Positions 13,809-58,932 of a DNA stretch of 64,000 nt are shown here, piece after piece; positions within the stretch are counted from its first letter, which is position 1, and every line of letters starts with the position of its first letter. Position numbers and translations under genes: made by a program. Source of the DNA: Leuctra nigra (lineage: Eukaryota; Arthropoda; Insecta; Plecoptera; Leuctridae); the NCBI GenBank assembly GCA_934045905.1, contig OW203762.1, positions 7,006,001 through 7,070,000 of the forward strand. The letters run 5' to 3'. The notes under the pieces are model-generated. The model did no database searches. It saw only the letters and a list, made by a program, of their open reading frames with translations, and was not told where the DNA came from.

Positions 13809-14360
13809 TCAAGGCATGTTGTTTGACGTGAACCTGGTGATGAGGTCCAACGCCCACGCCGGCTGGTCAGTCGGTACCATGTGCCCGGCATTCCTGACCA
13901 GCACCTCCGTGAAGTTCCCCGCCCCCCTCGTGTACCCCGCGATGTCCCCGCCGAACCTCCACACCTTCCTCTGCGCGCGGCGGTAATCGTCCACCCCGGC
14001 GAACTCCAGGTTCTCGTACATGTTCACGGACAGAGGGTAGGCGACGATCACGTCCATCTGTCCGTTGTAGTAGAGCACTCGGTAGTTGTCGATGAGAGTC
14101 TCCAGCCACGGCTTCACCGTCAGCATGAACTCCGGGATCATCTTGTTGTAGACGACGCCGCTGCCGTCGTCGTAGGTGACGTCGCCGACGTGGATGAGGC
14201 GTCGCACTTCCTCGCCCTGCACGAAGGAGGCGTAGTCGCCGCTGAAGGCCGGGAAGTCGACGTACAGGAAGTTGTAGTTGTTGCTGTAGTCGGAGTGAGT
14301 GTTCCACAGGTTCAGCACTTGGTTCCACAGCTGTAACACGGCAAGCGATTTGAGAGAGGT
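13809..14360 (-). CDS. Carboxypeptidase exon 7 (last)
   Basis: Acceptor CCGTGCAG, phase 0, 184 codons to TGA. It encodes the C-terminal third, including catalytic Asp398 (NGQMDVIV) and His455 (NAGHMVP). The frame ends in FTSNNMP. Confidence 0.92.
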   Translation of the reverse strand, partial: TSLKSLAVLQLWNQVLNLWNTHSDYSNNYNFLYVDFPAFSGDYASFVQGEEVRRLIHVGDVTYDDGSGVVYNKMIPEFMLTVKPWLETLIDNYRVLYYNGQMDVIVAYPLSVNMYENLEFAGVDDYRRAQRKVWRFGGDIAGYTRGAGNFTEVLVRNAGHMVPTDQPAWALDLITRFTSNNMP

Positions 14361-17300
14361 CTGCACGGAAAAAGGTTTGCTAATTTAACAACATGTGTTC
14401 TTGAATTCGTACCCCAGCAATGCGTTCTGTTTGGTCCAACGAAATATCAGTTGGAATTACCAGCATTAGTTAAATTGTTAGATTATAAACACTTTTTGTG
14501 GGGCTTTACGTCGCACAGTTCTGCAGCGAGGCTAATGGCGACGGATGAATGATTATGATGATTGGGAGATGATGGTGAATCAGGTAGGGATTGAAGGTGG
14601 GAAGGAGGCGGTCGTGGCCTATTAGTAGGGTACCTTCTCAGCATTTGCCTGTCGACTGGGGGAATACCCGGGCCCCCGGAATACAAATTCAGAGCGTTAC
14701 CACTGTGACTCAGCCATCTGCTCCAATTAACACTAAAATACTTTTTTCCGTGTGGGTAAATTCGACTTCAAGCTTATTGAATTAAATGACACACATTGGA
14801 ATACATTTACGACTTCTCGATGTCTCTGTACTGCAGTGTGACCAAATAAACTGCAGTCAATGTAGCCCGAGGGGAATTAAATTGCAGGATAGACATCAAA
14901 CAGAGTTTTCTGAAGTGGAGTAGCTAACTGTAGCTTTTAAGCTAATGGTAATACTGGCCCTTATAGATTTATTTACTAATTGTTGGATTCGCAGTAAGCT
15001 AATGCTGTGCGGTGAACGGTGAACGGTGTCTACGGTGAAGTACATACCGTCCACGCCAGGACGTACTGCTCGGCCGCGATGGCCTGTCTGGCGGACTGCT
15101 CGAAGCTCGCCATCCGATCACGAATGTTCACATCGACAAGGCCGAGCTGGAAGACGAAGGCGCTGTACTCGAAGATGGTCGGAGGATCCGTGAAGCCGTT
15201 GCCGACCACGATGCCTGGTGACAGATATCGTAACACTCAAGACAATACCAAGATAGAGGATCCAGTTCCCAAGATAAATAACAAGGTATGTACTGGCGTA
15301 GCTTCCCTTTAACTGTAGGCATATACAATGAAAAGGCAACTGCATCAATTTTCCTCCAAATGAATAACATTTAACACTTCCTATTAGTAAAAGCTGTCAA
15401 CGGAAAGATGGCTTTAGCTACGTGTAAATACTCTGGTAACGAGTGCATAATGGATACGGTTTTGAAACTAACTTTGTTATGAGTCCAGTTTTAAGAATGT
15501 TCGCATGCAATGTCTCCAATCAATAGATCCAGTTGTGGTGCTCCCATGTACATATTCTTATGAAATAGCACCGTGTGTTTTGATTTATTGAGCCACTGAA
15601 CTGTGAGCCACCTCGTCATATTCAGCGACAGGCTCCTACCTTGCAAGTTGATCTTGAGATCGGCCGTCGGATTCCGCGTGTGGATCGTGTATCCGAGAGC
15701 CGGAACGTACTTCCCTGGAACCGAACGACACAGGACCTTCATGAGGATAGTCAATGGCACGGGAAGAAGACTAGACAAGATCACGTGGGCCTGAATCACA
15801 GTTAAAACCATCGGGTATTGGCCACATTCAAACAACACAGTATCCGAGAGCCGGAACGTACTTCTCTGGAATCAAACGACACAGGAACTTCATATAGTCA
15901 TTGGCACGGGAAGAAGACGAGACAAGATCACGTGGGCCTGAATCACAGTTAAAACCATCGGGTATTGGCCACATCCAAACAACACAGTATCCGAGAGCCG
16001 GAACGTACTTCTCTGGAATCAAACGACACAGGACCTTCATGAGGATAGTCAATGGCACGGGAAGAAGACTAGACAAGATCACGTGGGCCTGAATCACAGT
16101 TAAAACCATCGGGTATTGGCCACATTCAAACAACACAGTATCCGAGAGCCGGAACGTACTTCTCTGGAATCAGGCGCGTAGGAAGGGGGGGGGGGGAGTG
16201 GGGGTCAATGACCCCCCCACTTTTCATCTTGACACCCCCAGATATAACCCCCAGATACACACAAATTTTGATAAAGAGATCCAAAAATGCACAAATTTGC
16301 TCCATTATGAGGTTGAATTCTCAAAATTTTCCCAAGTTTTGCAAAGCTAATTGAACAGAGGTATTATCCAATTAGACAATAACTCATTTGTCCAACATGA
16401 TCATCCTCATGAATACAATTTAATAATTACACGTTAAACTATGATACCGAATAAGCACCGTTTTCAAAGCAATTCCAAAATCTATTCTTAATCGATTATC
16501 TTTAGGGATTTTATCGAATAACAAAATTTACAGATTATAATGCATTTTGTCAAAGTTTCCCAAGAATATTGCATATCACAAATTTTAAATTTCTTTGAAA
16601 ACGATGCCAAAATAGCTTCAAATTCGATTCTTTTGCATCAAAAACTCAAAAAATTCCCTGCGGGGCCAATGGGGATTCTATAAAAACAAATAGTTACAGT
16701 TATATTACATTTGTATAAAGTTTCCACAGAATATTGCATTTCATACATTTTAAATTTCTTTGAAAAGTATGCTAAAATAGCTTTAAGCTCGATTATTTTG
16801 TATAAATAACCCAAAAAATTCCCTGCGGGGCCAATAATGGGTATTAAAAACAAATAGCTACAAATTATATTACATTTCTTAAAGTTTCCACAGAATATTG
16901 CATTTCACACATTGTAAATTTCTTTGAAAAATATACAAAAATAGCTTCAAATTCGATTCTTTTGTATCAAAAATTCAAAAAAGGCCCTGCGGGGCAATTT
17001 GGGTTGCGGGCTTCCCAGACCCCATTGTAACGACGACTACTTTTCCTCACATTCATTGATCCCCATAATTTTGACCCCCCCACTCAAAATGAAGTTCCTA
17101 CGCGCCTGTCTGGAATCAAACGACACAGGAACTTCATATAGTCATTGGCACGGGAAGAAGACGAGACAAGATCACGTGGGCCTGAATCACAGTTAAAACC
17201 ATCGGGTATTGGCCACATCCAAACAACACGAGTAATTATGATTACCCTGGCTAGTGGCTTAATACTGTTTCGTGTAGTAAACAAGGACTGAAGATCAATC

Positions 17301-20154
17301 AGTAGCAAGTAATGATATAGGAATATATCTAATGTGCATTATTATGCAACAAATTGTAATACATTAACTCATACTTGATCATATTAAACATATCTCTGAG
17401 CTATTATTCTCACGAATAAGAATCATGAATCATCACCTTCGTTATAGATATTTCATAGGCCGATCAAATAGACATTTTGTTTCCTGGACCATATGATGAG
17501 CAAACCATTTGGCATCTTACGAGATTCAAGGACACACACTATTTCTCACGCCTTACTTGCATCCAGTAAGACAAGACAAGGATGAATGTTACCTGCGAAC
17601 GACTCTCCAGTGATGAAGAACGCGTTGCTCTGGAGCTCGGGGAAGAGCGTGAAGAACTGCTGCATGGCCGAGTAGAGGTCGCTGCCGACTTGCGTCTGGT
17701 TGCTGGCGTAACCACGGTCATCGTCAGTGAAACTGAAGCCTGCAACAACATATTATCTTTTTTATACTTTAAACTGGAATAACAATACACCTCTCAGGAA
17801 CCACTCCAGAAGCGTTATTGGTAAACCATTGGACGAATAGATGGGTGCTCAAACACACTATACCTATCACATAATATCATTTTAATACACACTTCCTTGT
17901 TGGATGCAATTGCTATAATAATCAATGGATAATATCGTAGCGCCAAATAACGAATTATTCTTCAAGTGATCAGACCCTACAAAAACTGTAACCTTCGGAA
18001 ACTGTAACTCTAGAGATCTTAAACTTCAATAATCATAATTGGTATTATGAGTAGAGTTCATTTTAAAAGTTGTATCTCTGAAACAGCATTGACCACAATT
18101 TGCATTCAAAATAATACCAATCTTTTTCGAAGAACAAATAATTTGATTAGATAAGATTCAGGATCTGTGTCCATGTTCCTGTAGTGACGTCTTCAATCTA
18201 CACGTCTTCCAGTCACCTCCGGCTCTCCCGCCTGCCTCACCTGTGCCCACCGGATTGCCTATGAAGATGATGGAGTGGTTCTTGTGCCACGAGCCTCACC
18301 TGTGCCCACCGGATTGTCTATGAAGATGATGGATTGGTTCTTGTGCCACGAGCCTCACCTGTGCCCACCGGATTGTCTCTGAAGATGATGGAGTGGTTCT
18401 TGTGCCACGAGCCTCACCTGTGCCCACCGGATTGTCTATGAAGATGATGGAGTGGTTCTTGTGCCACGAGCCTCACCTGTGCCCACCGGATTGTCTATGA
18501 AGATGATGGAGTGGTTCTTGTGCCACGAGCCTCACCTGTGCCCACCGGATTGTCTATGAAGATGATGGAGTGGTTCTTGTGCCACGAGCCTCACCTGTGC
18601 CCACCGGATTGTCTATGAAGATGATGGAGTGGTTCTTGTGCCACGAGTACGGGTTCTCCACCAGAGTTACGTCATCGAAAGCGACTGAGAAAGGTCCGAG
18701 CTCGGTGAAGAGGGCGAAGAGTGACGAGGAGCCCGGGCCACCCTGCAGCCACAGCAGCACTGGCGCATTCTCGTAGTTGGTCTGCACAACACATATCACG
18801 TAATGAAACACAGTTACTTCGACATTGGACCATAATTTAATTTTAAGATCCAACCTAATTGACTGCAAAGTTCTGAGCCGCATCACGACTTTATAAGCAT
18901 CAATGAATATGTATGTGTTACAAACTTGAATCCTTGTAATATATAATTGGGACTTTCACTTCGATACTAACGTAACCCATTATTTTATCTTCGTAATTCC
19001 ACCTGATGATGATAATAATTGAACCATTTCCGCAGAAACGGTTTGCAACCAACATTTGGCAGACATCAAAGAGCAAGGAAACGACAACCTGTTTGTGGGA
19101 TCATCTATCTGTCGTGACGTACCTCCGCTGGGAAGAACCAGAAGAAGAGGTTGGAGTTGAACTCCTTGTTGACGGTGAAGAACCCCGAGTAGCTGGGGAT
19201 GTTGGACGGGAACGGACCGCCGCTGACAGCCGAGAGTGCGCGCGCCTCGGTGATGTTCCCAGCCTCGATGAGGTCGGTGAGCAGGAGGCGAGCGCCCACG
19301 TCACCCAACACGGGCTTCGGGTCCCAGAAGGGGTAGGCGTCCCTGTGACAATCAAGAGAGGCTATAGGTACAGGGATAGAGTAGCTACGTCGGATTGAAG
19401 TGCGTGCTCCCCAAGAGACATTGTTGTATTTACAACCATAAGCATAGTGTTGGTGACTGTATTGGTGCAAGTTTGCTTGTAAATATAAAATTACGTGTTA
19501 CGAGGAGATCCTGTTTTGTTTTTCGATTTTGAACAACACATGGCCAGTATGCGATTTGGCTACTCTACTGACTTATAAAATGGTTTTGCCTCACCGATGT
19601 ACTGTTACCTTGACGCAGTGGTGGGACTTCATGGGCCAACACACATTATGTGCTGGCTTAAACTAAGAGCAGAGCAGGGTTGACCTTTGGTTGACCTGGT
19701 CCCATGCCCTGCCCCAAACGAACCTTGCCTACCCTCCTCGGGCCGGCCTCCCCCTTGCGTTGGACATCCCCTAAATTCGGGTCCTACTGGACCGAACTCT
19801 CGGTGCCCACCAAGTCCATCCCCATTGTGGACTGACCTTCACGCTAAGACCAGACCCCCCGGGGCCGGTGCCTCCTAGGTTGACCCCTCCCCATGACCTC
19901 CCTTATATGAAACAATAGCATGTATCATAAAGTGCAGAATATGCCGTTTGGTATTCTGAGAAACCATACTTTGTGACTTGTGATTATATTGTGACATACA
20001 CGTGACTGTTGTGACTTGTGATTATATTGTGACATGGACGTGACTAGACGTGACTGTTGACTTACCTGAGGAACAAGTTCGGTCTTGCAAGAGCCTGCGC
20101 CTGCGCCGTGCACGCCGCCAGAAGGGCGAGGACACTCAGTGAAGCACGCATCAT
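13809..20154 (-). CDS. Serine carboxypeptidase (peptidase S10, CPVL/vitellogenic-like), complete gene
   Basis: Seven exons (20154-20066, 19342-19123, 18781-18595, 17739-17593, 15714-15640, 15214-15048, 14360-13809), all with GT-AG introns, give 1437 coding bases and a 478-residue protein, the usual size for this family. Residues 1 to about 20 form a signal peptide (hydrophobic SVLALLAACTAQAQA). Visible blocks are FWFFPA, PVLLWLQGGPGSSS (oxyanion region, residues 110-123), NPVGTGFSF, ITGESFAGKYVPAL with nucleophile Ser212, NGQMDVIV with Asp398 and NAGHMVPTDQP with His455. The triad is intact, so an active exopeptidase that removes C-terminal residues, secreted or lysosomal, is expected. N-glycosylation sequons include NIT, NHS, NQT and NFT. 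Two splice sites are embedded in tandem duplications (15690-17228, 18235-18647). A venom, digestive or vitellogenic role cannot be told from sequence. Confidence 0.93.
14496..14740 (+). repeat. Dispersed SINE-like repeat in carboxypeptidase intron 6
   Basis: The stretch from GTGGGGCTTTACGTCGCAC through TGCAGCGAGGCTAATGGCGA to GGGGGAATACCCGGG recurs in part at 2130-2205 (inverted), 21797-21835 and 33850-33960 (inverted parts). No polymerase III boxes were convincingly seen, so the class is uncertain. Confidence 0.6.
15048..15214 (-). CDS. Carboxypeptidase exon 6
   Basis: 167 bases between acceptor TCACCAG and donor GTATGT. Encodes GIVVGNGFTDPP, a block conserved in S10 enzymes, and the start of the cap region. 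Confidence 0.9.
15640..15714 (-). CDS. Carboxypeptidase exon 5
   Basis: 75 bases, acceptor GGTTCCAG, donor GTAGGA. Encodes the rest of the nucleophile block (GKYVPALGYTIH) and ends in KINLQ. Its acceptor and first ~25 bases are repeated three more times upstream in the intron. Confidence 0.9.
15690..17228 (-). repeat. ~150-bp x4 tandem repeat spanning the exon 5 splice acceptor
   Basis: Units are 15690-15840, 15841-15987, 15988-16138 and a fourth at 16139-17228 split by a transposon. Each holds the intron 3' end, the acceptor AG and the first ~25 bases of exon 5 (AAGTACGTTCCGGCTCTCGG). The three upstream copies read GAGAAG where the functional copy has GGGAAG after the splice point, and they lack the rest of the exon and its donor. 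Confidence 0.92.
16171..17108. mobile_element. hAT-like non-autonomous element (938 bp), CAGGCGCGTAGGAA family
   Basis: The terminal inverted repeats are CAGGCGCGTAGGAA and TTCCTACGCGCCTG. A perfect 8-bp target duplication, tctggaat, flanks it (16163-16170 and 17109-17116). It has G/C-rich runs near both ends and three internal ~170-bp repeats ending in CCCTGCGGGGCCAAT. No transposase. It interrupts the fourth unit of the splice-acceptor array, so it is younger than the array. Confidence 0.93.
17593..17739 (-). CDS. Carboxypeptidase exon 4
   Basis: 147 bases, acceptor TTGCAG, donor GTAACA. Encodes FSFTDDDRGYASNQTQ through FITGESFAG, carrying nucleophile Ser212. Confidence 0.92.
18235..18647 (-). 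repeat. 59-bp x7 tandem repeat spanning the exon 3 splice donor
   Basis: Seven units begin at 18235, 18294, 18353, 18412, 18471, 18530 and 18589. Each carries, on the minus strand, the last 52 bases of exon 3 followed by the donor GTGAGG. Units are nearly identical, so the expansion is recent. The unit length is not a multiple of three. Confidence 0.95.
18595..18781 (-). CDS. Carboxypeptidase exon 3
   Basis: 187 bases, acceptor TTGTGCAG, donor GTGAGG. Encodes the oxyanion block LQGGPGSSS and ends in IDNPVGTG. The 3' end of this exon with its donor is tandemly repeated seven times (59-bp unit); only use of the first donor keeps the frame into exon 4. Confidence 0.9.
19123..19342 (-). CDS. Carboxypeptidase exon 2
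   Basis: 220 bases, acceptor TGTCACAG, donor GTACGT. Encodes residues 30-103, including FTVNKEFNSNLFFWFFPA, the conserved start of the catalytic fold. Confidence 0.9.
19600..19900 (+). repeat. Dispersed repeat with GGTCCCA and CTCGGGCCGGCC blocks
   Basis: Similar to 55270-55430: both contain a CGCxGTGGTGG start, GACCTGGTCCCA and CTCCTCGGGCCGGCC. It lies in carboxypeptidase intron 1. Confidence 0.5.
20066..20154 (-). CDS. Carboxypeptidase exon 1 with signal peptide
   Basis: 89 bases from ATG at 20154 (a second ATG follows at once at 20151) to donor GTAAGT. Encodes a signal peptide followed by LARPNLFL. The first ATG was chosen because it is the most upstream in frame; either would serve. Confidence 0.87.
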
Positions 20155-20622: not shown

Positions 20623-20644
20623 CCCCCCCCCCCCCCCCCCCCCC
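20623..20644. repeat. Poly-C tract
   Basis: A run of about 22 C bases. Similar runs occur at 26523-26536, 29803-29817, 34733-34753, 62822-62837 (G) and 63302-63320. Confidence 0.9.
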
Positions 20645-20920: not shown

Positions 20921-21149
20921 GTAGGAGGGGGGGGGGGTTATCCCCCCCCACCCGAGCAGACTGACTCCCTATTCACCATACAAAACTAAGTTAAACATCC
21001 CAGAATCACTTTTAAATTGTTAAATTCTAAAAAACGATCTGCGGGGCTAATACTGAGGGGAATTCGCCGCCCCTAGGCCCCCCTTTCTGGGTGCCGCAAT
21101 ACCCCCCCCCCCCCAACCCCCAATGATAAAAGTAGTTCCTACGCGCCTG
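20921..21149. mobile_element. hAT-like element of the CAGGCGCGTAGGAA family, left end damaged
   Basis: The right end TTCCTACGCGCCTG is intact (to 21149). The left begins at GTAGGAGGGGG, missing the first seven bases of the terminal repeat. Flanks caatgaaa and gaatgaac agree at six of eight positions, compatible with an old 8-bp target duplication. Confidence 0.6.
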
Positions 21150-22516: not shown

Positions 22517-23542
22517 TCACCGGCCGTAAGTTCCTCCACTGCCGCCATGGTGATGGCCTTGACCTTCCCCGTGATGATTCCCGTGACCTTCCCCGTGACC
22601 TCCTCCGTGACTTCCTCCGTGACTTCCTCCGTGACTTCCTCCGTGACTTCCTCCGTGACTTCCTCCGTGACTTCCTCCGTGACTTCCTCCGTGACTTCCT
22701 CCGTGACTTCCTCCGTGACCTCCACCGCTGCCTTCTTCGTAGTGTACACCGCCACCACCTCCGTGTTGTCCGCCACCATGCTGTCCGCCTCCAGGCTTAA
22801 CTCCACCCCCGTGCGATCCGCCGCCTCCTCCATGCTGTCCTCCACTTCCGCCTCCATATTGTCCTCCGCTTCCACCAGGCTTAATATGTCCACTTCCATG
22901 CTGGCCACCGCCACCGCCTCCGCCTGGTTTCGAGCCTCCATATTGACCTCCTCCTCCGTGCTGTCCGGTAACATCAGCCGGCTTTATTCCAATATGTTGT
23001 CCACCGCCTCCACCGGGCTTTGAGCCTCCGTACTGTCCCCCTCCACCTCCCCCATGTTGTCCACCGCCTCCACCGGGCTTTGAGCCTCCGTGCTGTCCCC
23101 CTCCGCCTCCCCCGTGTTGTCCTCCGCCTGGTTTCGAGCCCCCATGTTGTCCTCCGCCTCCGCCTCCGCCTCCACCAAATATATCTCCGAATCCACTTGG
23201 TTTCGAGCCCCCGTGTTGTCCTCCTCCGCCTCCGCCTCCCCCATGTTGCCCGCCTCCCCCATGCTGTCCTCCACCTGGCTTGGAGCCACCGTACTGTCCT
23301 CCGCCTCCGCCGGGCTTGGAGCCCCCGTGTTGTCCTCCTCCGCCTCCGCCTCCCCCGTGTTGCCCGCCTCCCCCATGCTGTCCTCCGCCACCGCCGGGCT
23401 TAGATCCTCCATATTGTCCGCCTCCGCCTCCGCCGGGCTTAGAACCTCCATATTGTCCTCGGTCTGGCTTCTCCTCGGCCTCGTAGTCGTCGCTCTCCGC
23501 CATGACGTAACTCACGCAGAGCAGCGCAGCGAGCGCCAAGGC
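22517..23542 (-). CDS. Gly/His-rich protein, large last exon
   Basis: 342 codons including TGA at 22519-22517, opening at acceptor CTTCCAG. Upstream in-frame sequence to 23650 is open by chance but reads as intron (polypyrimidine-rich). Low-complexity Gly/His/Lys/Pro repeats occupy residues ~35 to the end. Confidence 0.85.
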   Translation of the reverse strand, partial: ALALAALLCVSYVMAESDDYEAEEKPDRGQYGGSKPGGGGGGQYGGSKPGGGGGQHGGGGQHGGGGGGGGQHGGSKPGGGGGQYGGSKPGGGQHGGGGQHGGGGGGGGQHGGSKPSGFGDIFGGGGGGGGGQHGGSKPGGGQHGGGGGGQHGGSKPGGGGGQHGGGGGGQYGGSKPGGGGGQHIGIKPADVTGQHGGGGQYGGSKPGGGGGGGQHGSGHIKPGGSGGQYGGGSGGQHGGGGGSHGGGVKPGGGQHGGGQHGGGGGVHYEEGSGGGHGGSHGGSHGGSHGGSHGGSHGGSHGGSHGGSHGGSHGGGHGEGHGNHHGEGQGHHHGGSGGTYGR

Positions 23543-47200: not shown

Positions 47201-50200
47201 TTAGTCGTCCACTCTCCACCAACGGGAAACCAGACCAACCCGAAAACGAATAAGAGACCGCGCTGCCAGCAACATCTTCGCAGTCAACCGCCAGAAGATG
47301 AAGGAAGTACATCCTTCGAAACGTCGCGAACGGCCCTTATCAGGGCCACCAGCACCTCCAACGAAACAAACCGTCACCACTGCCATGTCATTACAAGATG
47401 GTTCCGAAAACGTCCACGACATTATTTTATGAAAGTTTTGACTTGGCCAATTTTTTGATATCACTGTTTTTCAGTGCTGAATTTTTAGATTTCTTCTATT
47501 TTTTTTAAGTTGAAGAGACTTGGCTGGTATTTTTACACGGAGTGTTTTTTTTATGGGGATATCACTCCTTTTTTTAGTTTATTCTTACACTTGTGACATA
47601 TATTGTTGCACCAAAGACTATAATTCCTTTAAAAAATACGCCTTTGTGATTTGGTTGCTAAGAAAAGTTGTGCTAATTACTATGTATATGCTTTAAATAA
47701 TATGCTATGATATGAAGTATAGCGAAAGTTTTGTTCCAATCGGTCCAGCCGTTCTCGAGATATATGGCATCACTTCCGGTTTTCAAAATGGCGGCTGACT
47801 TCACTGCCACCTAAAATTTGTATCTATATATTTTATGCAACATAATAAGCCTTCTGAATATGTAGTTATTGTTATAAGAAATGATTTTAGTCAGATTTGG
47901 CATTTTTATGACGTCATTTCCGGTTTTGGTAATAGTACATTTCTATTTCGACTATTGATATTTCATAAAGAAGACCGTCCGAATCGTTTGGCGCTAGTTT
48001 CGTCCCGATAGGTCCATCCGTTTTTAAGATGTAACGTCACTTCCGGTTTCAAAATGGCGGCACAAAAAATTGTAAGGGCAAGGTATCATCAGCTGCCAAA
48101 AGTGCATATGCGGTAAAAATTTTAGATCGATTAGTTTAGCCGTTTAGGCGGTGACAGCGGTGTTTCCTGATATCTGAATTTGAATCTGAATCATCATTAT
48201 CAGATAGCTTTTAAAAGGGGTGTAATTTCACTGCTTTCACGGCCCTCTAGCTTGCAAATGGAATAACCTATTGTTCCCAAATTTGGTATATGTTGTCAGG
48301 TGGGCCATAACTCGAAATTAAGGTATTTCGCAACAATGTGAGATTTTTCCAATTTTCAGATCCAGTAGGCCGAAAATGCCATGTTGTTGCTTACAGTAAA
48401 AGTGGTTGGTCTGCTCCTCAGTTTCTTAGGCTTTTACGGTTTGTTGAGTGAGTGTGAGTGTACAGTACAACTTGGCTGGGTGGAGCGACCGCTCCACTAG
48501 ATTGCAAGAGCTTGTATTTATGGCCTCTCATGATGTGTCCAAAGTATTCTAGCTTTCGTCTTTTGATGGAAAATATCACCTCTAAGTTCTTATTCATTCG
48601 TTCCATCACTTCGACATTTCTAACCTTGTCCATCCATGAGATTCGGAGCATGCGACGATAAACCCACATCTCGAAAGCTTCCAGTCTCTTGCATAGCAAC
48701 TTGCTTAAGGTCCAACCTTCAAGTCCATACAACAATACGAGAAATATGTAGCACCTGACCATGCGCATCATCAGATCTAAGTTAAGATTGCGATTACACA
48801 GTAGTTGCCTCATATTAGTGAATGCCGAGCGTGCTTGTTCGATACGACTCTTGACCTCTTGAGTATATTCCCATTGATCGTTCACGCAACAACCAAGATA
48901 TCTGTAGTGATGTACGCGCTCGATAACAACGTTATCCAGCACTAACTGGGCATCAATGTTCCTTAGCTTTGAAACAACCATAAACTTCGTATTTTTCAAG
49001 TTCATGCTAAGACCGCTGTGGTTAGTTGTAACACTAACTTCCTCCAACAGCGACTGCAGATCTTCCTAGTTTGTCAGCCAGCAGGACTGTGTCGTCGGCG
49101 TATCTTATACTGTTCACCAGCTCCCCATTGATGACGATACCTTCTACTGCGCCATCCAAAGCTTCTGCCAGTATAGCTTCCGAGTAAATATTGAATAATA
49201 ACGGTGACAAAACACAACCCTGCCGAACACCACGCCGAATCAGGACTTCCTCGGAAAGGCTCTCTTCAACTTCTTTCAAGACTGCCTGCTGATTCCAATA
49301 CATATTTGCTATGATACGAATATCTCTTCTGTCCAGCCAATGTTATGCAATAGCTCCATTAATTTCCTGTGTTTGACCTTATCAAACGCTTTCTCATTAT
49401 CAATGAAACAAGCATAAACGTCCATATTCATATCTTGACAACGCTGCACTAATACTTGCATGCAGAACAAGGCATCCCTTGTACCAAGGCCATTCCTAAA
49501 TCCGAATTGAGATTATGTCATCATCAGATGTTATAAATTACTTCAATTATTAGTAAATCATATTCTCAACTCAACAGAGCCGAGGTTCCACTTTGAGGAT
49601 GCAATGCAATGTATAGTAAATGGCAGTGTTGGGGAAGTTCCTTTTTAAAACGATCTTTTTAAAAGTTCAGTTCACGTCCAAATATATGAACTTTTTAAAA
49701 GTTCAAGTTCTTTATTTTAAGCATGTGTAGTAAAAGTTCACGTTCCTTAAAAAAACAAATATAAGTTCTTTTAAAAGTTCTTTTGAAAAAAAATTAACTA
49801 TATCTAGTGGAGCGGTCGCTCCACCCAGCCAAGTCGTACTATACACTCACACTCACTCAACATACCGTAAATGCCTAATAAACTGAGGAGCAGACGAAAC
49901 ACTTTTACTGTAAGCAACAACATGGCATTTTCGGCCTACTGGATCTCAAAATTGGGAAATCTCACATTGTTGCGAAATAACTTAATTTCGAGCTATGGCC
50001 CACCTGACAACATATACCAAATTTGGGAAGAATACGTTATGCCGTTTGGGTGCTAGAGGGCCGTGAAAACAGTGAAATTACACCCCTTTTAAAAGCTATC
50101 TGATGATGATGATTCAGATATCAGGAAACGTTGCTATCACCGCCACAGCCTAAACGGCTGAACCGATCAAACTGAAATTTTTACCACATATGCACTTTTG

Positions 50201-53200
50201 GCGTCTGATGATACCTTGCCTCTTGTGATTTTTTGTGCCGCCATTTTTAAACCGGAAGTGACGTCATATCTCAAAAACGTCTGGACCGATTAGAACGAAA
50301 TTAGCGCCATTCGATTTAGACGGTCATCTATATGAAGTATCAATAAAAAAATTATTATTTTCTTATTTTCTGAACCGGAAGTGACGTCATAAATACGCAA
50401 TATTTAACTTATTTCAACAAATTATACTTAAAATACATACATAAGTAACTTACATTGTAACATAGACAATACAAATTATAAATTCAAGGAGGCAGTGTTC
50501 TCGGCCGCCATTCCTGAAACCGGAAGTGACGTAATATATCTAAAACGCCTGTACCGTTTGCAACTGAACTAGCTCCTGCGTATTCATTCTGCAACTTTTT
50601 TTGAAACTCAATTGTGAAAAATGAATAAACAAATTAACGGTACCGGAAATGGCGGCAGGAACCACTAAATGAAACCGGTAGTGACGTCATATATTACATA
50701 CGGCAAGACCGATTTTACGGAAATATAGGGATTATGAATTCAGATGGTCGTTCATAAAGTATCAACTAGATTGTTTTCCTATTACCTATACCGGAAATGA
50801 CGTCATAAATATGCTAAATGACGTCATAAATATGATAATTGACACAAAATTCACCACTTTATACTTTTAAATAGATATTTAGTAAACCTACTTTGTAAAT
50901 AATTATAAATTCAAGGTTGCAGTGTTCTCGGCCGCCATTTTTAAAACCGGAAGTGACGTCATATATTGAAAACAGCTGTACCGATTGCAACCAAATTTTG
51001 GAAATGTGAAGGACTAATAATTATGAATTGAAGACGACTTTATTTTCGGCCGCCATTGTTAAAACCGGAAGTGACGTCATATATCGAAAACGGCTGTACC
51101 GATTGCAACCAAATTTTAGAAATATGGAGGACTAATAATTATGAATGAAATACGACATTATTTTCGGCCGCCATTGTTAAAACCGGAAGTGACGTCATAT
51201 ATCGAAAACGGCTGTACCGATTGCAACCAAATTTTGGAAATATGTAGGAATTATAATTATGGATTAAAGGCGACATTATTTTTGGCCGCCATTGTTAAAA
51301 CCGGAAGTAACGTCATATATCAAAAACGGCTGTACCGATAGCAACCAAATTTTGGAAATGTGTAGGACTTATAATTATGAATTAAAGACGACATTATTTT
51401 CGGCCGCCATTGTTAAAACCGGAAGTGACGTCATATGTCGAAATCGTCTGTACCGATTGCAACCAAATTTTGGAAATATGGAGGACTAAAAATTATGAAT
51501 TAAAGACGACTTTATTTTCGGCCGTCATTGTTAAAACCGGAAGGGACGTCATATATCGAAAACGTCTGTACCGATTGCAACCAAATTTTGGAAATATGTA
51601 GGACTTATAATTATGGATAAAAAGACGACATTATTTTCGGCCGCCATTGGTTCAACCGGAAGTGACGTCATATATCGAAATCGTCTGTACCGATTGCAAC
51701 CAAATTGTGCAATTATGTAGGACTAAATGAATTCAAGACGACATTATTTTCGGCCGCTATTTCAAAACCGGAAGTGACGTCATATATCGAAAACGGCTGG
51801 ATCGATTATAACGAAACTTAAGCTATTCTTCTTGGATAATCATTTTCATCTTATACCAAACGCAACTTTTCTTAGTAAGCAAATCGGTTGAGGCGTATTT
51901 TTTTAAAGAAATTAGTCCCTGCTCGGACATGTGCTACAAGCTGTATGAATAAACTAACAAAAGAAGTGATATCCCAGAAAAAAACACTCCGTGTAAAAAA
52001 GGCAGCCAAGTCTCTTTACTTTAAAAAAATTCAACACCGAAAAGGAGTGATATCAAAAAAGGAGCCAAGTCAATGACATTTCCAAATATTTAATCGTATT
52101 TTTGAAATAAAAGAATAAACACCGAGAAATACTTTACAAAAGGACTTGGCGCATCGTTTTTTAAATTCATTTTTTGATTCATAAGCATATGCCATTGATA
52201 TACAACCGTAATTTAGAATTTTTAGAATAATAGGGAAACATCTTTCAATTACATATTATACATATACCTACTGTAAAATATTATCTATTAGAATATGTAC
52301 GTACGCGATAAAACTTGTTGCCTATGTTTTCTATAAATACACAATAGTTAGTTATCTTCGTAATATTGTTTCGTGGTCAACATAATTAAGTCTCATGCGT
52401 TAAACCTTCTCATCATGAAATACATTTCTATTAATCCACATTTTATAACAAAACATTTCACAAAGTACATAGTCACATTGAATTTCTATTAAAAATTTTA
52501 ACTTTATACACTTGACACTTCAAAAATATATAATAGTGTTCCAAAGACAGTTCGTAATTATTTGACAACGTTTCATGATTTCCTTCAGTCAAGATCAAAT
52601 TATGAAAAGATACCCTTCTAATATCACCATATTAACAGTGCTATAAGAATATGTATGAGCCCACTTCCAATTGTTATTTAATTCTTCCACCCTTATATTA
52701 CTTATCTATTACAGCATGAAATCTTTCTACTATCGCCATTGACAAAACTATAAAATAGCCATTACTAAAAGTAGCTTGATTCATAGTTTCTGGCTCTAAT
52801 AGAAAGAGGAAAATGTACCTACTTTAAATTTCTTTCCACTTTTAGTATTGAATGAGGTCTTTAAAAAAACGATGCGCCAAGTCCTTTTGTAAAGTATTTC
52901 TCGGTGTTTATTCTTTTATTTCAAAAATACGATTAAATATTTGGAAATGTCATTGACTTGGCTCCTTTTTTGATATCACTCCTTTTCGGTGTTGAATTTT
53001 TTTAAAGTAAAGAGACTTGGCTGCCTTTTTTACACGGAGTGTTTTTTTCTGGGATAATTAACTACGCGTGAAACTTTGGAACTGGGAAGAATCTAAGAGG
53101 GGCCCCTACTTCCCCTTCCACACCTGCCTCAAACTACCCTCGCCATAGTAACCAATCCACGCTCAGAGTTAAAGAAACTTGGGAAATCTTCGGATCGGCT

Positions 53201-56200
53201 CGGACTTTATTCCGATTCGACGGCTTAGTGCTCAGTAGGAAAGAGCGAAATTGATCGTAACGTTCGTGGTTAAAACGAACGTTTGACGTTAACGTTCTTT
53301 GTATACAAAAAAGAACGCATTCGCTCAAAAGTTCGCAAAAAAAGTAACGCGTTCCTAGGAACGCGTTCTTTTTAAAAGTTCCCTCCCCAATACTGGTAAA
53401 TGGATTGGAGGAAACCCGGTAACCGGCATGTAGCCTACTCCTGACGAAAGATACCAAGGGGGACAACGTCTTAACGTCCCATCCGAAGGACGGTGTAATA
53501 TTTTCAGCACAAGCCTCCACAACCCGCGTCGTCGAGAAACTGATAACAGGTGGAGGGAAGTCGCAACACCAACCCCCGAACACCCCAGTCTCTCTGGCCC
53601 AACGACCCCGTTCAATGTTGCTTAGATCTGTTGAGAACCGTGGTCTTATCCTATACATCCGTTATCAACTTTAGGAAGTCACTTCAAATGTACCTCAAAG
53701 ATAAGATATTTAAAATGGATTTCCGATGTCGTTGATTTTGATTTTGTCCATGATTTGCAGCTACATCCGCTGCTTCTTCTTCTCCACGAAGACGGCAACA
53801 TCTATCGGCAAGAACGCGAAGCCCGAGAACAACATCGAGCTTGTGTTCATGACGTGGAACTGGCTGCAGGGAGTGTTCGTGTTCGCGCTGCTCATCAGTC
53901 AAGTAGGTCTTGCAGTTGTCTGCGTCTCAGTGGCAGTGACTCTCCTGATCCATGTGTCTTGATTCTCTCCATCTTCACAGAGTCGCTCCTGATAAGTCCT
54001 TCAATAGTGAACCAGCGTAGAGATCGCGAGACATATTATGTCGATAGGACAACTATTCAATGGGATTAGCATTGACTCGACAATGACGTCGATCGTCTAC
54101 GTCGTGTCTAATTATGTTTTTCTCGTGAAGACTTATCGATCGACTGATGCCAAAATATCCACGGTCGTTGTACAGAACGACTACAAGAAGATGCCTGAGC
54201 TCTCTAGTGCGGATTACGCGCATGATATGACTGATGTTTGTGCGCAGATGCGGGACATAGTGGCGTCGGCTACCGGCGTGCAGAACGAGTACCGGCAGAT
54301 CGTGGACGGCACTCTGGAGTACATGCGTCGCCAGAACCTGCCACTGGAACTGCAGGAGCGCGTCAAGCGTTGGTTCACCTTCACGTGGACGCAGCAGCGC
54401 ACTCTAGGTGGGGTTCATTCCAACTTTCACACTCAAACTCTTACGATCGATAAAAAAAATTCGTTAACATCACTGAAAAATGTTCTCGATAAAGTATAAC
54501 CTTGGAACTGTGGACATTACAAGATCGTTCGAGTCGGTTTTCCATACGGAATCGAGAAGATGTGACGACAGCCCGTGTGAAAGAGCATGCGAGCTGTTAT
54601 AAAAGAATTCCCTTTCGCACGGTTTGTCGTCACATCTGCTCGAATCCGAATGAAAAAGGGAATTAACGATCTCAAAAATAGGTTACCTGTTCCATCGACT
54701 GACCGAGTTTCACTCCAAGAAATTAATCCCATCCCATCGCAACAATAATGGAAGAAACACAATTGTAAATGATCTGACACAATGCCAGACAACAGACGCC
54801 CGTATAATATTGACTGTATTCGCAGACGAGCGTCAAATCACCGGCAATCTTCCCAACAAACTGAAGATGGACGTGGCCTTGAACCTGCACATCCAGACAC
54901 TGAATAAGGTGCAGCTGTTCAAGGACTGCGACGAGGCGCTTCTGCGGGAGTTGGTGTTGAAACTCCGACCAGTCATCTTCCTGCCCATGGATCTGGTCAT
55001 TAGGAAGGTAGGGGGTTATCATAGGTACACGCTTGCGTACTCCAGACAAGTCGAAAAAACTGGTTCTCAGATTGGGTTGTGTGTATTTGTTGATGATACG
55101 TGATGTGTATATCTTTATAATTTGCGTATCTGCCCAGCAGTCAAACTATTATTTTGAATTTGTGGGGCTGTGTGTTTTTTTCAGTTGTATAATGTGTTGA
55201 ATGAAAACAAAAAAGATTGAGGACAAAGCTGTTCTTCTGTTTAAATCCCTTTTGCCGTTGAAAGCCTCACCAATAGAGTGCTAGCTTGCCGCGGTGGTGG
55301 AGCTTAAGGGACCAACTCACATTACCAGTTGGTCCCAACTAAATGCAGTTCAGTGTCGACCTGGTCCCACGCCCTTCCCAAATTCGCGGGCTCCTCGGGC
55401 CGGCCCACCCCCTCGAGATGGAGAAGTTGTGGTGTCTTCTCAACTGTTGACTTGGGACGTAGGGCGACGTTGGCAAGGAGATGTATATCGTGAAGACCGG
55501 CCAGGTGCAGGTGATGGGCGGCAACGAAGTGCTGGCAACACTGTCGGAGGGATCCGTGTTCGGCGAGATCGCGCTCCTGGGCGACCAGGGAGGCGGGAAC
55601 AGACGCACCGCCACTGTCAGGTACATCCCTTGTTCCATGGCAACAGACACACCGCCACTGTCAGGTACATCCCTTGTTCCCTTGAACTCCGTTATATATT
55701 ATTGTGCGAAGTTCTAGCAACTTGGCTAATTAACATTGTTAAGTCTGATTTGCATGTTAAACTTGTCAATGTGAAAGGATGTAACACTGTTAAATGATAC
55801 CAAAGTCCAGAACTCTGTTCAATCGCCTCCCCGCCAGCGATGCAACGTTGACCTCTGATTGGCCAACTTGTGTGTTGTCGAGCAGGTCACGAGGCTTCAG
55901 CAACATCTTCGTCTTGAACAAGGCTGACCTTGAGGAGGCGATCGAACATTACCCGGCTGCGCAGAAGATCCTGCATGAGAAAGCACAGTGAGTGTACATA
56001 ACCTCAAACCAGTCCTGCGAACATCGTAGTTCACATTTCACATGAGTCACAGGGACATAGCTACTTGGTAACATAGCTAATTCGATGAACTGCATAATTA
56101 CTTTTGAAAACATAAAGGACTTCTGATCACGAATAAGTTATTACGTCATTACTCCAAATTATGATATCATAATGAGGTTGGTTGGTTCTGTCTATCACCA

Positions 56201-58932
56201 TGTTGTTAATATAAGGGTTTAAATATTACGGTCCGTAGCTTATGGATGGCCACACGCTCCGTCTTGTCGTAAGCATTAGGTACGTATACGCAGTTCAAAA
56301 CTCCGCAATTGCGCGATCTGAACGCAGGAGTTGGAGAACTGAGCAATTAGCTCAAATTTTGTTCCGTTTTCCAATCTTTCTCTGGTTATCAGAGATTAGT
56401 TCTGCAGGAACTGAATGGGAAGACGGTGCTGGAAACTCATCTTGCAATGGACGCGTCAGACTCAGAACTGCAATGTTCCTACGTTTAACCTGCGCAGTCA
56501 AAACGCAACCCAACGGCTGGTGTATTGGATACCACGGTTATCGGCAGATCACCGAGGTTAAGCAACATTGAGCTGGTCAGTAGTTGGATGGGTGACCGTT
56601 CAACTCTGGCCTGTTACTTGCTGCCGTTGGGCCAGAGAGACTAGGTTGTTTAAGGTTAGTGTGACGACCTCATTCCACTTGTTATCAGTCCCTCGACGGC
56701 GCGGGTTGTAAAGGCCCGTGCTGTGAATGTCACACCGTCTTTCAGATGGTACGTTAGGTCGTCAATTGGTATCATTCGTCAGGAATAGAGCACATACGAG
56801 CAGTGCGTTTTGACTGCGCAGGTAACGTTACAGCTATGACGCGTCAACAGTACAGTTTCCAGCACCCTACTTGACAGTAGCTCTCTGACAAGGAGTGAAT
56901 GCAATGGTGTGACGTCACAGGGCTCTGACAAGGAGTGAATGCAATGGTGTGACGTCACAGGGCTCTGACGAGGAGTGAATGCAATGGTGTGACGTCACAG
57001 GGCTCTGACGAGGAGTGAATGCAATGGTGTGACGTCACAGGGCTCTGACAAGGAGTGAATGCAATGGTGTGACGTCACAGGGCTCTGACGAGGAGTGAAT
57101 GCAATGGTGTGACGTCACAGGGCTCTGACAAGGAGTGAATGCAATGGTGTGACGTCACAGGGCTCTGACGAGGAGTGAATGCAATGGTGTGACGTCACAG
57201 GGCTCTGACAAGGAGTGAATGCAATGGTGTGACGTCACAGGGCTCTGACAAGGAGTGAATGCAATGGTGTGACGTCACAGGGCTCTGGTGCGCGCCAACA
57301 CTGCGCGTGTGCAGGAGGTGGTGGAGACGGAGGACGAATACGACCGCTGGCTTGACGGCGGAGTGACGTCATCGCCACAGCAAACAACCCCCAAGCTGCT
57401 GCACACTGTCCTGCAGGTGAGCAACCTCAATCTATTTTCTGTAATATCGTATATCGTATAATTCGGGTATTTGGGTTTCCATTTGCTTTGGAACGTGCGT
57501 TGGAAGCATTTATAGTCGTATATTGGGATAGAACGGTGTTGTATAAAATGCAAGAGGCAAGCTCTAAAACTATATCCCAAATAATCCATGGAAACATTAT
57601 GTTTTACTCTCGAGTCCGACATTTTCCTTGATAACTCTGGCATTGAAATATCAACTAGCATTTAGTCTGTAAAAACAGAACGAGTTGTTTTAAACCTGAT
57701 GACGTATAGACAGCAATGTTATTTGCAACAAGCCATCAGATTTAAAATTGTGTTTTTGTGTTCATAACTGCCTCATGACGTCAGAGATCTATTGGCTCGA
57801 TTTCGAGCGTTCGAAAATTTGCTCGTTTTATTCAGACTTGGAATAAAGTTTCCTTGTCACAATTCATGGAAGATCAGGATGGGGCTCCTATAGAGTCGAA
57901 CACTGAATGCCGCCATTTTGTGTAACTATTATATACAAATAAAGAAACTGAAACTGAAAACTGAAACAGAATAATAAATTTTGGTTTGTCTACATCCATT
58001 TCAAGATTTCAAGTTTTTAAATTAATTCTACAACTAGAGAGATCCCTATTGTTCACCTGTATTCTCGTGGTGTCTTGATTCCCGTGGTGTCCGCCAGGTG
58101 GTGCCTGCTGACTCCGGCACGGCCCGGCTGCTGCGGCGTCCTGCACGACGTCACAGGGCGCCGCGACGCTCGTCTCAGCCGCGCAGGGTGAGTCGAGTCA
58201 CATGAGGTCGTAACTTGCAGACCTCACCCTAGAGTGGAGCGGCGATGAGGACTTAAGGTAACGGGACGCGTGGGTTCTTCAAAGTGTGTTCTTGAGTCTT
58301 CTACTCACAATAACAGAACACAATTGAAGAGCAGCACGCGCTCTCTCACCTTACCCAGACCTTCTTATAATCTGTTCATATACTGAGGAGTCAATCATGA
58401 TAGAAAATATGCGTGTACACAACTCAATTGAACAAGATCATATTCAAATATCTATCAAAAGAAAATAATAATAAGTAAATCACGCTTTATGTGAATGTAA
58501 CAGGCATTCAAAGGTTCGACCATAGAATTAGAAAGCCAGTAGTAATTGTCTTCGCTAGATAGAAGCTTAACCCAATAGGTCGTCTGTGTGAGCCATCGTC
58601 ACTCTCAAGACTAGTACCACAGGCTGTCACAGCGCCGCGTGTTGAGCTGCATGGATAGTCTGGTCTTTATTCTAGGAGATACCCTGCCGAGCGTCTATAC
58701 AGGTAGTGGCTGTAACAGAGGGGGTAAATCTGGAAATTCTTTTGAGCATGCGACTGTAAATGAACAATTGACGACCAGAAGTTAGTCTGGTCTAAAATTC
58801 ACCTTCCTTGAGTTAGTCTAACTGTACACCCTGGGACACATGTTACAGGTGGTCAGCAGTCCACAGATCCAGAGGTCAGATTCCAGCAGTGATCAGTTGC
58901 AATGCGAGGTCATAGTTCACCAGCCAGGTTAA
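34201..58932 (+). CDS. Cyclic nucleotide-gated channel subunit, CNGB/CNGL type, 15 exons
   Basis: Exons 34201-34290, 41166-41301, 42280-42394, 43419-43702, 44111-44424, 44516-44605, 44844-45025, 53761-53902, 54248-54407, 54826-55007, 55463-55620, 55886-55987, 57281-57416, 58098-58187 and 58849-58932 join in frame with GT-AG introns: 2265 bases, 754 residues. Residues ~1-208 are a cytoplasmic N-terminus with a poly-Pro stretch. S1-S4 are residues ~229-343 (S4 has [10 protein letters not shown]), S5 ~360-385, pore and S6 405-451, C-linker 452-555, and a cyclic-nucleotide-binding domain ~540-650 with FGEIALL and NRRTATV (Glu600, Arg613, Thr614). [14 protein letters not shown] and GGGNRRTA match the beta/CNGL branch. 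The product should be a cAMP/cGMP-gated plasma-membrane cation channel subunit of sensory cells. Exon 1 is the least certain part; further upstream exons are possible. Confidence 0.87.
34291..35188. other. Channel intron 1, proximal part
   Basis: AT-rich with a C run at 34733-34753 and GGGCCCCTGGCAAAATATTT, similar in type to the hAT-like end at 36095-36131. No gene seen. Confidence 0.45.
35189..35990 (+). mobile_element. Helentron-like element, copy 4
   Basis: 802 bp, TGAGCGAGCGAAGCGAGCG to CAACGCGTTACTCAGAGCG and TTTTCCTAG, then T. A T/A homopolymer of 24 bases sits near the left end. Confidence 0.65.
36095..36131. mobile_element. Solo hAT-like end
   Basis: ACCCGGTATAGTTACGCCAC then TG at 36131 is the inverted form of a CAGTGGCGTAACTATACCGG end, typical of animal hAT MITEs. 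A matching left end was not found. Confidence 0.4.
36186..41165 (+). repeat. 31-bp minisatellite (~160 units) built from the exon 2 splice acceptor
   Basis: The unit GGGCATGGTGTCAAGTTGTT + CCCTGTGCGCA is the reading of a pyrimidine tract, acceptor CAG and the first bases of channel exon 2. The last copy passes into GGCATGGTGTACCCC, the real exon. Higher-order structure is present: the GGCATGGTATCAGG variant and its neighbours recur near 36842, 37491, 38231, 38942, 39653 and 40394, a period of 650-740 bases. No stop codon occurs in the consensus in any plus frame. Confidence 0.96.
41166..41301 (+). CDS. Channel exon 2
   Basis: Starts right after the last TTCCCTGTGCGCAG of the 31-bp array (GGCATGGTGTACCCC) and ends GCTGCAG|GTGCGT. 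Encodes [17 protein letters not shown] and a Ser/Thr-rich tail. Confidence 0.75.
41395..41785. repeat. ~390-bp imperfect palindrome (foldback)
   Basis: Arms meet near 41590 at GAACCCGAAAATTACTAAATTT + TCGGGTTC; shared outer blocks are TGTAATTGTTAACAAAATAG (left) and its complement (right). In channel intron 2. Confidence 0.85.
42280..42394 (+). CDS. Channel exon 3
   Basis: Acceptor TTTCACTCTGCAG, donor GTCAGT; encodes [15 protein letters not shown] and a Ser-rich segment. A foldback element begins nine bases past the donor. Confidence 0.8.
42404..42955. mobile_element. 552-bp foldback MITE abutting the exon 3 donor
   Basis: Arms of about 190 bp begin CTCGCTAAAAAAAGATCAGC + ACTGCCCTCTGGTGG and are inverted at the right end. 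Nine bases separate it from the donor GT at 42395. No coding. Confidence 0.85.
43419..43702 (+). CDS. Channel exon 4
   Basis: Acceptor TTCTTCTTCTCAG, donor GTGAGT. Encodes [20 protein letters not shown], a Pro-rich linker and [13 protein letters not shown], the block just before S1. Confidence 0.88.
44111..44424 (+). CDS. Channel exon 5 (S1, S2, start of S3)
   Basis: Acceptor CAACTTATAG, donor GTCAGC. Encodes S1 ([20 protein letters not shown]), RSSFPYQT, S2 ([20 protein letters not shown]) and [10 protein letters not shown]. Confidence 0.92.
44516..44605 (+). CDS. Channel exon 6 (S3-S4)
   Basis: Thirty codons, acceptor CTTCTGTTTTAG, donor [21 protein letters not shown] and the S4 voltage-sensor remnant [10 protein letters not shown]. 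Confidence 0.92.
44844..45025 (+). CDS. Channel exon 7 (S5)
   Basis: Acceptor TAGTTTCAG, donor [20 protein letters not shown]5 ([20 protein letters not shown]) and the turret. The following intron is 8.7 kb. Confidence 0.92.
45149..45645 (+). repeat. TTC (GAA) microsatellite, ~165 triplets
   Basis: An almost pure CTT/TTC run with one interruption near 45553 that shifts register. It lies in channel intron 7, about 120 bases after the donor. Confidence 0.98.
45720..46558. mobile_element. hAT-like element remnant rich in GGAACTAGTTCC
   Basis: The right end CGTTCCTACCCAACACTG matches the CAGTGTTGGG-type ends of the 49624-53395 element. The body has many AGTTCC/GGAACT inverted motifs. The left end is not found and may have been lost beside the TTC microsatellite. 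Confidence 0.5.
46657..47559. mobile_element. TA-flanked element with long inverted repeats, copy 1
   Basis: ~140-bp inverted ends start TCCCCATAAAAAAACACTCC and share AGCCAAGTCTCTTCAACTT with 51972-53054. A second inverted pair inside (46890-47040 / 47240-47395) contains GGCCCTTATCAGGGCC. The right flank has TA. Confidence 0.68.
47570..48500 (-). repeat. Inverted relative of the 49803-51850 repeat family
   Basis: On the minus strand it reads from CTAGTGGAGCGGTCGCTCCA through CGTCAC-and-CCGGAAGTGA blocks (near 48050, 47930, 47775), matching the plus-strand copy beginning at 49805. Terminal GTGGAGCGGTCGCTCCAC is itself palindromic. Confidence 0.7.
48418..49510 (-). pseudogene. RTE-like reverse transcriptase, 5'-truncated and frameshifted
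   Basis: Three minus-strand frames together give an [17 protein letters not shown] and [20 protein letters not shown] (~49510-49350), then [18 protein letters not shown] and YADDTVLLA (49303-49070), then [28 protein letters not shown] and [13 protein letters not shown] (49047-48520). Frame changes fall near 49345 and 49065. The YADD catalytic motif is intact but the enzyme is dead. It lies antisense inside channel intron 7. Confidence 0.88.
50947..51830 (+). repeat. ~118-bp x8 array with GCCGCCATT, CCGGAAGTG and TGACGTCA
   Basis: Near-regular copies of ACCGGAAGTGACGTCATAT occur at about 50947, 51064, 51181, 51300, 51417, 51535, 51656 and 51772, each preceded by CGGCCGCCATT and followed by CTGTACCGATTGCAACCAAA. 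Diverged copies extend back to ~50220. Confidence 0.92.
51972..53054. mobile_element. TA-flanked element with ~200-bp inverted repeats, copy 2 (1083 bp)
   Basis: TCCCAGAAAAAAACACTCCG at the left end is inverted at the right end, with TA on both sides. Inverted similarity continues for ~200 bases through GAGTGATATCAAAAAAGGAG and GACTTGGCGCATCGTTTTT. Likely a Tc1/mariner-type non-autonomous element, nested in the hAT-like one. Confidence 0.78.
53404..53640 (-). mobile_element. 5S-rRNA-related SINE fragment
   Basis: The minus strand contains TAAGCAACATTGAACGGGG, GTTGGGCCAGAGAGACT, CTGTTATCAGT and CACCGTCCTTCGGATGGGACG, the same blocks as the better copy at 56500-56800. The 5S-like head is mostly missing. 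Confidence 0.65.
53761..53902 (+). CDS. Channel exon 8 (pore and S6)
   Basis: Acceptor GATTTGCAG, donor GTAGGT. Encodes [18 protein letters not shown] and S6 ([17 protein letters not shown]). A Lys follows the TSIG filter motif where CNGA channels have Glu and vertebrate CNGB1 has Gly. Confidence 0.93.
54248..54407 (+). CDS. Channel exon 9 (C-linker)
   Basis: Acceptor TTTGTGCGCAG, donor [23 protein letters not shown] through [17 protein letters not shown], the conserved C-linker of CNG channels. Confidence 0.93.
54826..55007 (+). CDS. Channel exon 10 (C-linker to binding domain)
   Basis: Acceptor TGTATTCGCAG, donor [43 protein letters not shown] and the first beta strands of the binding domain. 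Confidence 0.93.
55270..55430 (+). repeat. Dispersed repeat, second copy of the 19600-19900 family
   Basis: GCCGCGGTGGTGGAGCTTAA, GACCTGGTCCCACGCCCTTC and CTCCTCGGGCCGGCCCACCC. Ends about 30 bases before channel exon 11. Confidence 0.5.
55463..55620 (+). CDS. Channel exon 11 (phosphate-binding cassette)
   Basis: Acceptor GGGACGTAG, donor [33 protein letters not shown] and [10 protein letters not shown]. The exon end plus donor is duplicated 44 bases downstream. Confidence 0.93.
55598..55680 (+). repeat. 44-bp duplication spanning the exon 11 splice donor
   Basis: AACAGAC[G/A]CACCGCCACT + GTCAG|GTACATCCC + TTGTTCC occurs at 55598 and again at 55642. The second copy offers an alternative donor at 55665; using it would shift the frame by 44 bases. 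Confidence 0.9.
55886..55987 (+). CDS. Channel exon 12 (end of binding domain)
   Basis: Acceptor GTCGAGCAG, donor [26 protein letters not shown] and [10 protein letters not shown]. Confidence 0.92.
56500..56800 (+). mobile_element. 5S-rRNA-derived SINE (SINE3 type)
   Basis: The head reads ATACCACGGTTATCGGCAGA, TCACCGAGGTTAAGCAACAT, then GGTCAGTAGTTGGATGGGTG + ACCG, closely matching animal 5S rRNA including the internal polymerase III promoter. A body follows with GGGCCAGAGAGACTAGG and a TTTCAGATGGTACGTTAGG segment. It lies in channel intron 12. Confidence 0.82.
56881..57280 (+). repeat. 40-bp x10 tandem array carrying the exon 13 splice acceptor
   Basis: Ten exact 40-bp units contain GGCTCTGACAAGGAGTGAAT and GCAATGGTGTGACGTCACAG. 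The last GACGTCACAG is the acceptor of exon 13 (GGCTCTGGTGCGC), so every unit repeats an acceptor plus seven exon bases. An A/G variant distinguishes two unit subtypes. Confidence 0.95.
57281..57416 (+). CDS. Channel exon 13
   Basis: Starts after GACGTCACAG at the end of the 40-bp array and ends [32 protein letters not shown] and an acidic, then Thr/Pro-rich tail. Confidence 0.83.
58098..58187 (+). CDS. Channel exon 14
   Basis: Acceptor GTCCGCCAG, donor GTGAGT. An Arg-rich thirty-codon segment ([20 protein letters not shown]), open and in phase. Confidence 0.75.
58849..58932 (+). CDS. Channel exon 15 (candidate last exon)
   Basis: Acceptor ACATGTTACAG; 27 codons ([16 protein letters not shown] ... 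VIVHQPG) to TAA at 58930. The stop overlaps a donor-like GTTAAGT, so further exons cannot be fully excluded. Confidence 0.65.
   Translation: MVSSPQIQRSDSSSDQLQCEVIVHQPG

Follow-up and report, generated by a model that had tools for sequence, protein, structure and literature searches.

Minisatellites spanning exon edges, of the kind called mirages, recur in the genome of the stonefly Leuctra nigra

The window analyzed here is a stretch of 64,000 nucleotides on chromosome 2 of the stonefly Leuctra nigra (G000:C2:7006001-7070000; assembly ipLeuNigr2.1, GCA_934045905.1; genome of 536,196,549 bp). It carries two genes with tandem arrays at their exon edges. The first of them, on the reverse strand (13809..20154), encodes a serine carboxypeptidase that we take to be CPVL-like. 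Its seven exons (20154-20066, 19342-19123, 18781-18595, 17739-17593, 15714-15640, 15214-15048, and 14330-13809), separated by six introns, were spliced into a single clean frame of 468 amino acids, and the protein matched human lysosomal protective protein and carboxypeptidase Y in PDB alignments. Two of the six introns carry arrays, as the earlier note had claimed, and both junctions were aligned to the human lysosomal protective protein (4mws). The donor of exon 3, which ends at 18595, is covered by 7.0 copies of a 59-bp unit (18234..18647, reverse strand, detected by Tandem Repeats Finder, TRF) composed of 52 bp of exon and 7 bp of intron. The GT is kept in all seven copies found, and homology to 4mws crosses the junction between NPVGTG and FSF. 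The acceptor of exon 5, which starts at 15714, lies in an array of 3.2 copies of a 151-bp unit (15689..16172, reverse strand, detected by TRF), the distal remainder of which was read by eye on the far side of a hAT-like insert (17109..17229). Here the AG is kept in 5/5 copies found over 15689-17229, and the homology to 4mws crosses the junction between FAG and KYVPAL.

The insert is an element of 938 bp (16171..17108) with perfect CAGGCGCGTAGGAA inverted ends and an 8-bp target duplication, TCTGGAAT; from its CAG ends together with the 8-bp duplication, it is presumably a hAT element. Because this element, with its target duplication, sits within the 151-bp array, the array is older than the insertion. 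A second copy of the family lies at 33168-33849, with ends AGGATGGA/AGGATGGG and one mismatch in one end, and positions 21136-21149 are also listed under the family with CAGGCGCGTAGGAA ends.

The second gene, on the forward strand (41166..58187), encodes a CNGB-like channel, for which the earlier note counted 14 introns; our model covers 13 exons, up to but excluding the last one. Exons 1 to 7 lie at 41166-41301, 42280-42394, 43419-43702, 44164-44424, 44516-44605, 44844-45025, and 53761-53902, and exons 8 to 13 at 54248-54407, 54826-55007, 55463-55620, 55886-55987, 57281-57416, and 58098-58187. The start of exon 4 (44164) was placed by eye, and the alignment of the protein with CNGB1 continues across it. 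The whole model matched CNGB1 (7rh9) with E=2e-138 over residues 86-614 of 679. The acceptor of exon 12, which starts at 57281, is covered by 10.1 copies of a 40-bp unit (56883..57287, forward strand, detected by TRF) with 7 exonic bp. The AG is kept in 10/10 copies found, and homology to CNGB1 (7rh9) crosses the junction between EKAQ and ALVRAN, close to the end of the alignment. The donor of exon 10, which ends at 55620, is spanned by about 1.8 copies of a 44-bp repeat (55603..55680, forward strand). This repeat was seen in the sequence and is outside the TRF list, which holds the other four of the five arrays (151, 59, 31, and 40 bp). Both of its copies keep the GT, and the homology to 7rh9 crosses the junction between TATVR and SRGF. 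The longest array, 161.5 copies of a 31-bp unit (36186..41175, forward strand, detected by TRF), reaches 10 bp into the putative exon that begins at 41166, and 160 of the 162 copies found keep the AG. This junction has no homology support (the alignment to 7rh9 starts at model residue 86). The end of the array is a plausible acceptor; alternatively, the GGCATGG found there may be the start codon. Selection on the decoy AG of this array was considered and dropped, many other columns being equally invariant. The earlier note had described five splice-site arrays, four of which (59, 151, 44, and 40 bp) were placed by homology, while the 31-bp one perhaps adjoins an ATG start. It had also described the units as unrelated, and no unit matched another. 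When the units were compared with the window and 297 kb of loci, the sole off-array matches were five of the 151-bp unit in L001, a locus of 4 kb that is the same stretch of the window. In the carboxypeptidase and channel models, every array sits at an intron edge and no new intron was seen.

The window contains several other repeats. Positions 14493-14704 belong to a dispersed repeat with at least 39 further matches among the best 40 of 1589 candidates, each ~180 bp long (89-93% identity) and together spread over 12 of the 13 large contigs; many of these matches are accompanied by a second piece of ~39 bp. A stop-to-stop frame of 378 amino acids at 22517-23653 consists of Gly/His-rich tandem repeats, with TRF periods of 12, 24, 36, 39, 60, and 84, every one a multiple of three. 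At 28811-29456 there are 8.1 copies of an 80-bp unit that contains the acceptor-like TTTCCCACTCACAG and has no known adjoining exon. The intron after channel exon 1 holds a long inverted repeat (41500-41770, by eye), and an almost pure TTC microsatellite of 164 units (45150-45640, TRF) lies between channel exons 6 and 7. Open frames resembling non-LTR reverse transcriptase were found by eye at 48418-49342 and 61601-62119.

Profile searches of the host genome gave, among the matches listed, at least 93 for the myosin head, at least 7 for class III ADH, and at least 95 for SLC6 (PF00209), and the loci that we examined total 297,463 bases, including the 4 kb that repeat the window. Seven more clear cases emerged from these loci, distributed over three genes for myosin and two for SLC6 and placed by profile matches or by eye. 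The myosin acceptors carry arrays with units of 73 bp (L010, detected by TRF on the reverse strand only), 134 bp (C2:19046836-19047251), 100 bp (9.7 copies, L049), and 150 bp (L057), and an SLC6 acceptor carries 14 copies of a 113-bp unit (L078). The two donors, both placed by eye from the reading frame, are those of a 131-bp array of 4.4 copies in myosin (L057) and of an 83-bp array in SLC6 (L075). Together with the window there are 12 cases, 8 at acceptors (counting the unconfirmed 31-bp one) and 4 at donors, and the genes affected are the carboxypeptidase, the channel, three myosins, and two SLC6. Mirages, as such structures have been called in amphioxus, thus recur in the genome of L. nigra. 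The Adh3 gene showed no strong array at its exons, its sole strong array being downstream of the stop. Arrays left out of the 12 were a 61-bp array (L048) that begins at the GT itself and contains no exon base, a 40-bp array (C7:31981902-31982105) that ends ~10 bp before its acceptor, and an array in L055 that, by reading, is well within the intron and away from the exon end. The unit length was divisible by three in none of the first ten cases and in 1 of 12 when the 150-bp case was added; avoidance of such lengths is not claimed (P=0.054, post hoc).

Some features of these gene families were noticed on the way. One myosin exon (profile 376-436) is present in seven tandem copies at G000:C1:19366964-19370357, perhaps as mutually exclusive exons. 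Myosin loci that share the same match score occur in pairs, at G000:C1:29082521/29119183 (~37 kb apart) and 12123130/12136058 (~13 kb apart), which are either recent duplications or retained haplotypes. Twelve SLC6-family genes (PF00209; L059-L070, on C11, C12, C6, and C2) have their domain in one intronless frame, beside intron-bearing relatives.

The overlap of arrays with exon edges was compared with chance in an unselected sample of 158,936 bases of gene regions, chosen without regard to repeats and containing 165 profile-match edges. These edges came from 84 matches (71 of the at least 93 for myosin, 6 of the at least 7 for class III ADH, and 7 of the at least 95 for SLC6). The myosin matches excluded were on near-identical duplicate stretches or their sequence was not taken, and 13 of 20 SLC6 loci, full-length or nearly so in one open frame, are outside the edge test. 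Arrays with a TRF score of at least 100 and a period of at least 25 were counted on both strands (20 arrays), and the null was the rate at which a random non-exon point falls, with the correct orientation, in an array's terminal unit. Four of the 165 edges lay in arrays against 1.59 expected (both strands, P=0.076). The corresponding rate, 2.4% (CI 0.7-6.1%), is a rough one, because some of the 165 edges are domain ends or ends of matches joined over an intron. With a slack of 15 bp there were 6/165 against 2.11 expected (P=0.020), and 2 of these 6 do not span the edge. On one strand only, the counts were 3/165 against 1.50 (P=0.19) and, with slack, 5 against 1.96 (P=0.048); one strand with 151 edges and no slack gave 2 against 1.40 (P=0.41). 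The 131-bp and 150-bp arrays of L057 and the 83-bp array of L075 sit at edges unlisted by the profile search and are therefore outside the 4/165. In the window, TRF arrays covered 4 of 38 modeled edges, where 0.88 would be expected (P=0.011 after overlapping rows were collapsed, P=0.046 before), a count that includes the unconfirmed 31-bp edge and comes from a window picked for the pattern. When arrays rather than edges were the starting point, the sampled gene regions contained 20 strong arrays, 7 of which spanned an exon edge, the edges being read. Arrays at exon edges are common, and their rate is not far from random seeding; a two- to three-fold bias toward edges may exist. An overlap above chance, which the earlier note had put forward for checking, was not significant at the edge itself in this gene sample; it reached P=0.020 with slack, when the two arrays that do not span the edge are counted too.

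The Adh3 mirages of amphioxus were reportedly described by Canestro et al. in 2002. As cited in PMC3087553, boundary-spanning tandem repeats were named mirages in amphioxus Adh3, and that text also describes them in the amphioxus globins BflGb6 and BflGb9, with intron-gain proposals, and reports undisturbed regular splicing, length polymorphism, and somatic instability. The L. nigra arrays resemble them in their minisatellite-like units over the 5' or the 3' exon-intron boundary, in the many copies carrying AG or GT, and in unit lengths of tens to ~160 bp; donors and acceptors are both affected, at several unrelated loci in one genome. They differ in that the host is an insect and not a cephalochordate, and in that the stonefly Adh3 lacks a strong array at its exons; we take the term to name a structure, not a taxon. 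In human segmental-duplication genes, minisatellites at exon-intron boundaries that modify introns have been described in PMC2812944. Those repeats came to light in comparisons of recent paralogs and frequently go with alternative transcripts and novel introns; the stonefly arrays occur at the exon edges of genes whose protein families are widely conserved. The earlier note knew of no named system that does this, and the amphioxus mirages and the human boundary repeats now answer to that description. A duplication across an intron-exon boundary in a potato RdRp gene, according to PMC4974935, likewise supplied splice signals; there it made a new intron, whereas the stonefly arrays lengthen an existing one, with no new intron in the models. 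In the literature searched, judged from titles and the starts of abstracts, no insect or stonefly mirage was recognized, and to that extent the insect host is new. The word "minisatellite" is absent from the main text of PMC3902484, and the words "tandem," "repeat," and "intron" are absent from the main text of the genome paper of L. nigra (PMC10280035).

We consider it likely that the arrays are mirages, that is, minisatellites that arose by local tandem duplication spanning an exon edge and are tolerated with the exon-adjacent copy still in use. Each unit combines an exon edge with an intron edge. The conserved protein is matched only by the copy that continues into the remainder of the exon, and the other copies are on the intron side with GT or AG mostly intact; judging from the protein models, the functional copy would be the one joined to the exon. 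Seed duplications would arise by slippage or unequal exchange anywhere in a minisatellite-rich genome. Those entirely within an exon would mostly be purged, and those across an edge would be near-neutral. Exon definition pairs the far edge of an exon with the nearest splice site; edge-crossing seeds may be near-neutral because the exon-adjacent copy is picked in this way and the others are removed as intron. The array would then expand and drift as any minisatellite does, and the intron would lengthen. The cost to the gene of a duplication at an exon edge is probably small, since the exon-adjacent copy continues to function, in line with the suggestion of the earlier note that one intact junction remains beside the exon and the duplication escapes selection. 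Intron growth by local duplication, proposed in the same note, is supported, and the myosin and SLC6 cases bear out its view that duplication across junctions is recurrent.

The earlier note had also proposed selection for splice-site redundancy, and the near-universal retention of GT or AG in the copies found would fit selection for redundant or regulatory splice sites. The use of a decoy would nevertheless produce a frame shift or a stop in 48 of the 48 decoys with at most 5 mismatches from the junction (11 cases, the 31-bp array aside), and therefore the decoys are not spare sites able to rescue the protein. In the unconfirmed 31-bp array, decoy use would break the frame in 136 of 160 copies, and its AG columns are no more conserved than many others. 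The decoy of the 150-bp array of L057 has a stop in the correct reading frame, and three decoys of the 131-bp array share the loss of one nucleotide that breaks their exon part; this loss and the broken frames indicate that the decoys are not kept for coding. Such selection is accordingly very improbable. The same copies bear on a different proposal, in which a functional copy under purifying selection would re-seed the array, so that arrays at edges stay recognizable for longer than intronic ones. In 6 of 7 arrays, the decoys differ less among themselves in their exon part than in their intron part. Their distance to the functional copy does not exceed their distance to one another in 5 of 7 arrays when exon parts are compared, and in 7 of 7 when intron parts are; for the exon part, the decoys of the remaining 2 of 7 are closer to each other than to the functional copy. 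The exon-part distances in those five arrays look as if the decoys drift from a constrained source, and these small numbers hint that the constrained functional copy seeds the array. Against this, the parts compared are few and short (in two arrays, the exon or the intron part is 7 bp long), simple repeats in the intron parts mutate faster, and the CPVL 59-bp, CPVL 151-bp, and L057 131-bp arrays each fail one of the comparisons. We regard re-seeding from the functional copy as doubtful.

Exon edges might instead start duplications more often than other sites, for example through R-loops, pausing, or AG/GT-rich microhomology. The excess at the window edges, the counts in the unselected sample with and without slack, and the 7 of 20 strong arrays that span an exon edge all point toward such a bias. 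The unselected sample is, however, nonsignificant at the edge itself, with 2 of the 6 slack matches off the edge, and the window was chosen for the pattern; moreover, 3 of the 7 spanning arrays are at unlisted edges, which leaves the array-first count without a defined total of edges for comparison. The edge rate of 4/165 against 1.59 is compatible with random seeding, and a splice-site bias seems rather unlikely to us. An artifact of assembly collapse or expansion, or of wrong exon edges, is harder still to credit. The 31-bp case can indeed be read as a start codon, but the assembly was built from HiFi reads with a QV of 57.2, according to PMC10280035, a transposon together with its target duplication lies within the 151-bp array, and four of the window junctions were placed by homology; we hold this explanation to be extremely unlikely.

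The arrays at exon edges also carry a warning for gene prediction, since a gene of this kind can present as many as 13 convincing decoy splice sites among the backed cases, or as many as 160 with the 31-bp array included. With ~2% of the sampled edges affected (CI 0.7-6.1%), a chromosome-level assembly, and a second haplotype (the alternate haplotype is deposited as GCA_934046545.1, as given in PMC10280035), intron growth by boundary duplication would become countable and datable. A bolder and speculative reading, which we think improbable at present, is that thousands of minisatellites at exon edges drive intron growth in stoneflies, that splice sites are their preferred starting points, and that the constrained functional copy seeds them and so keeps them alive. 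If this reading were true, mirages would be a general and convergent route of intron growth in animals, and not an oddity of amphioxus.
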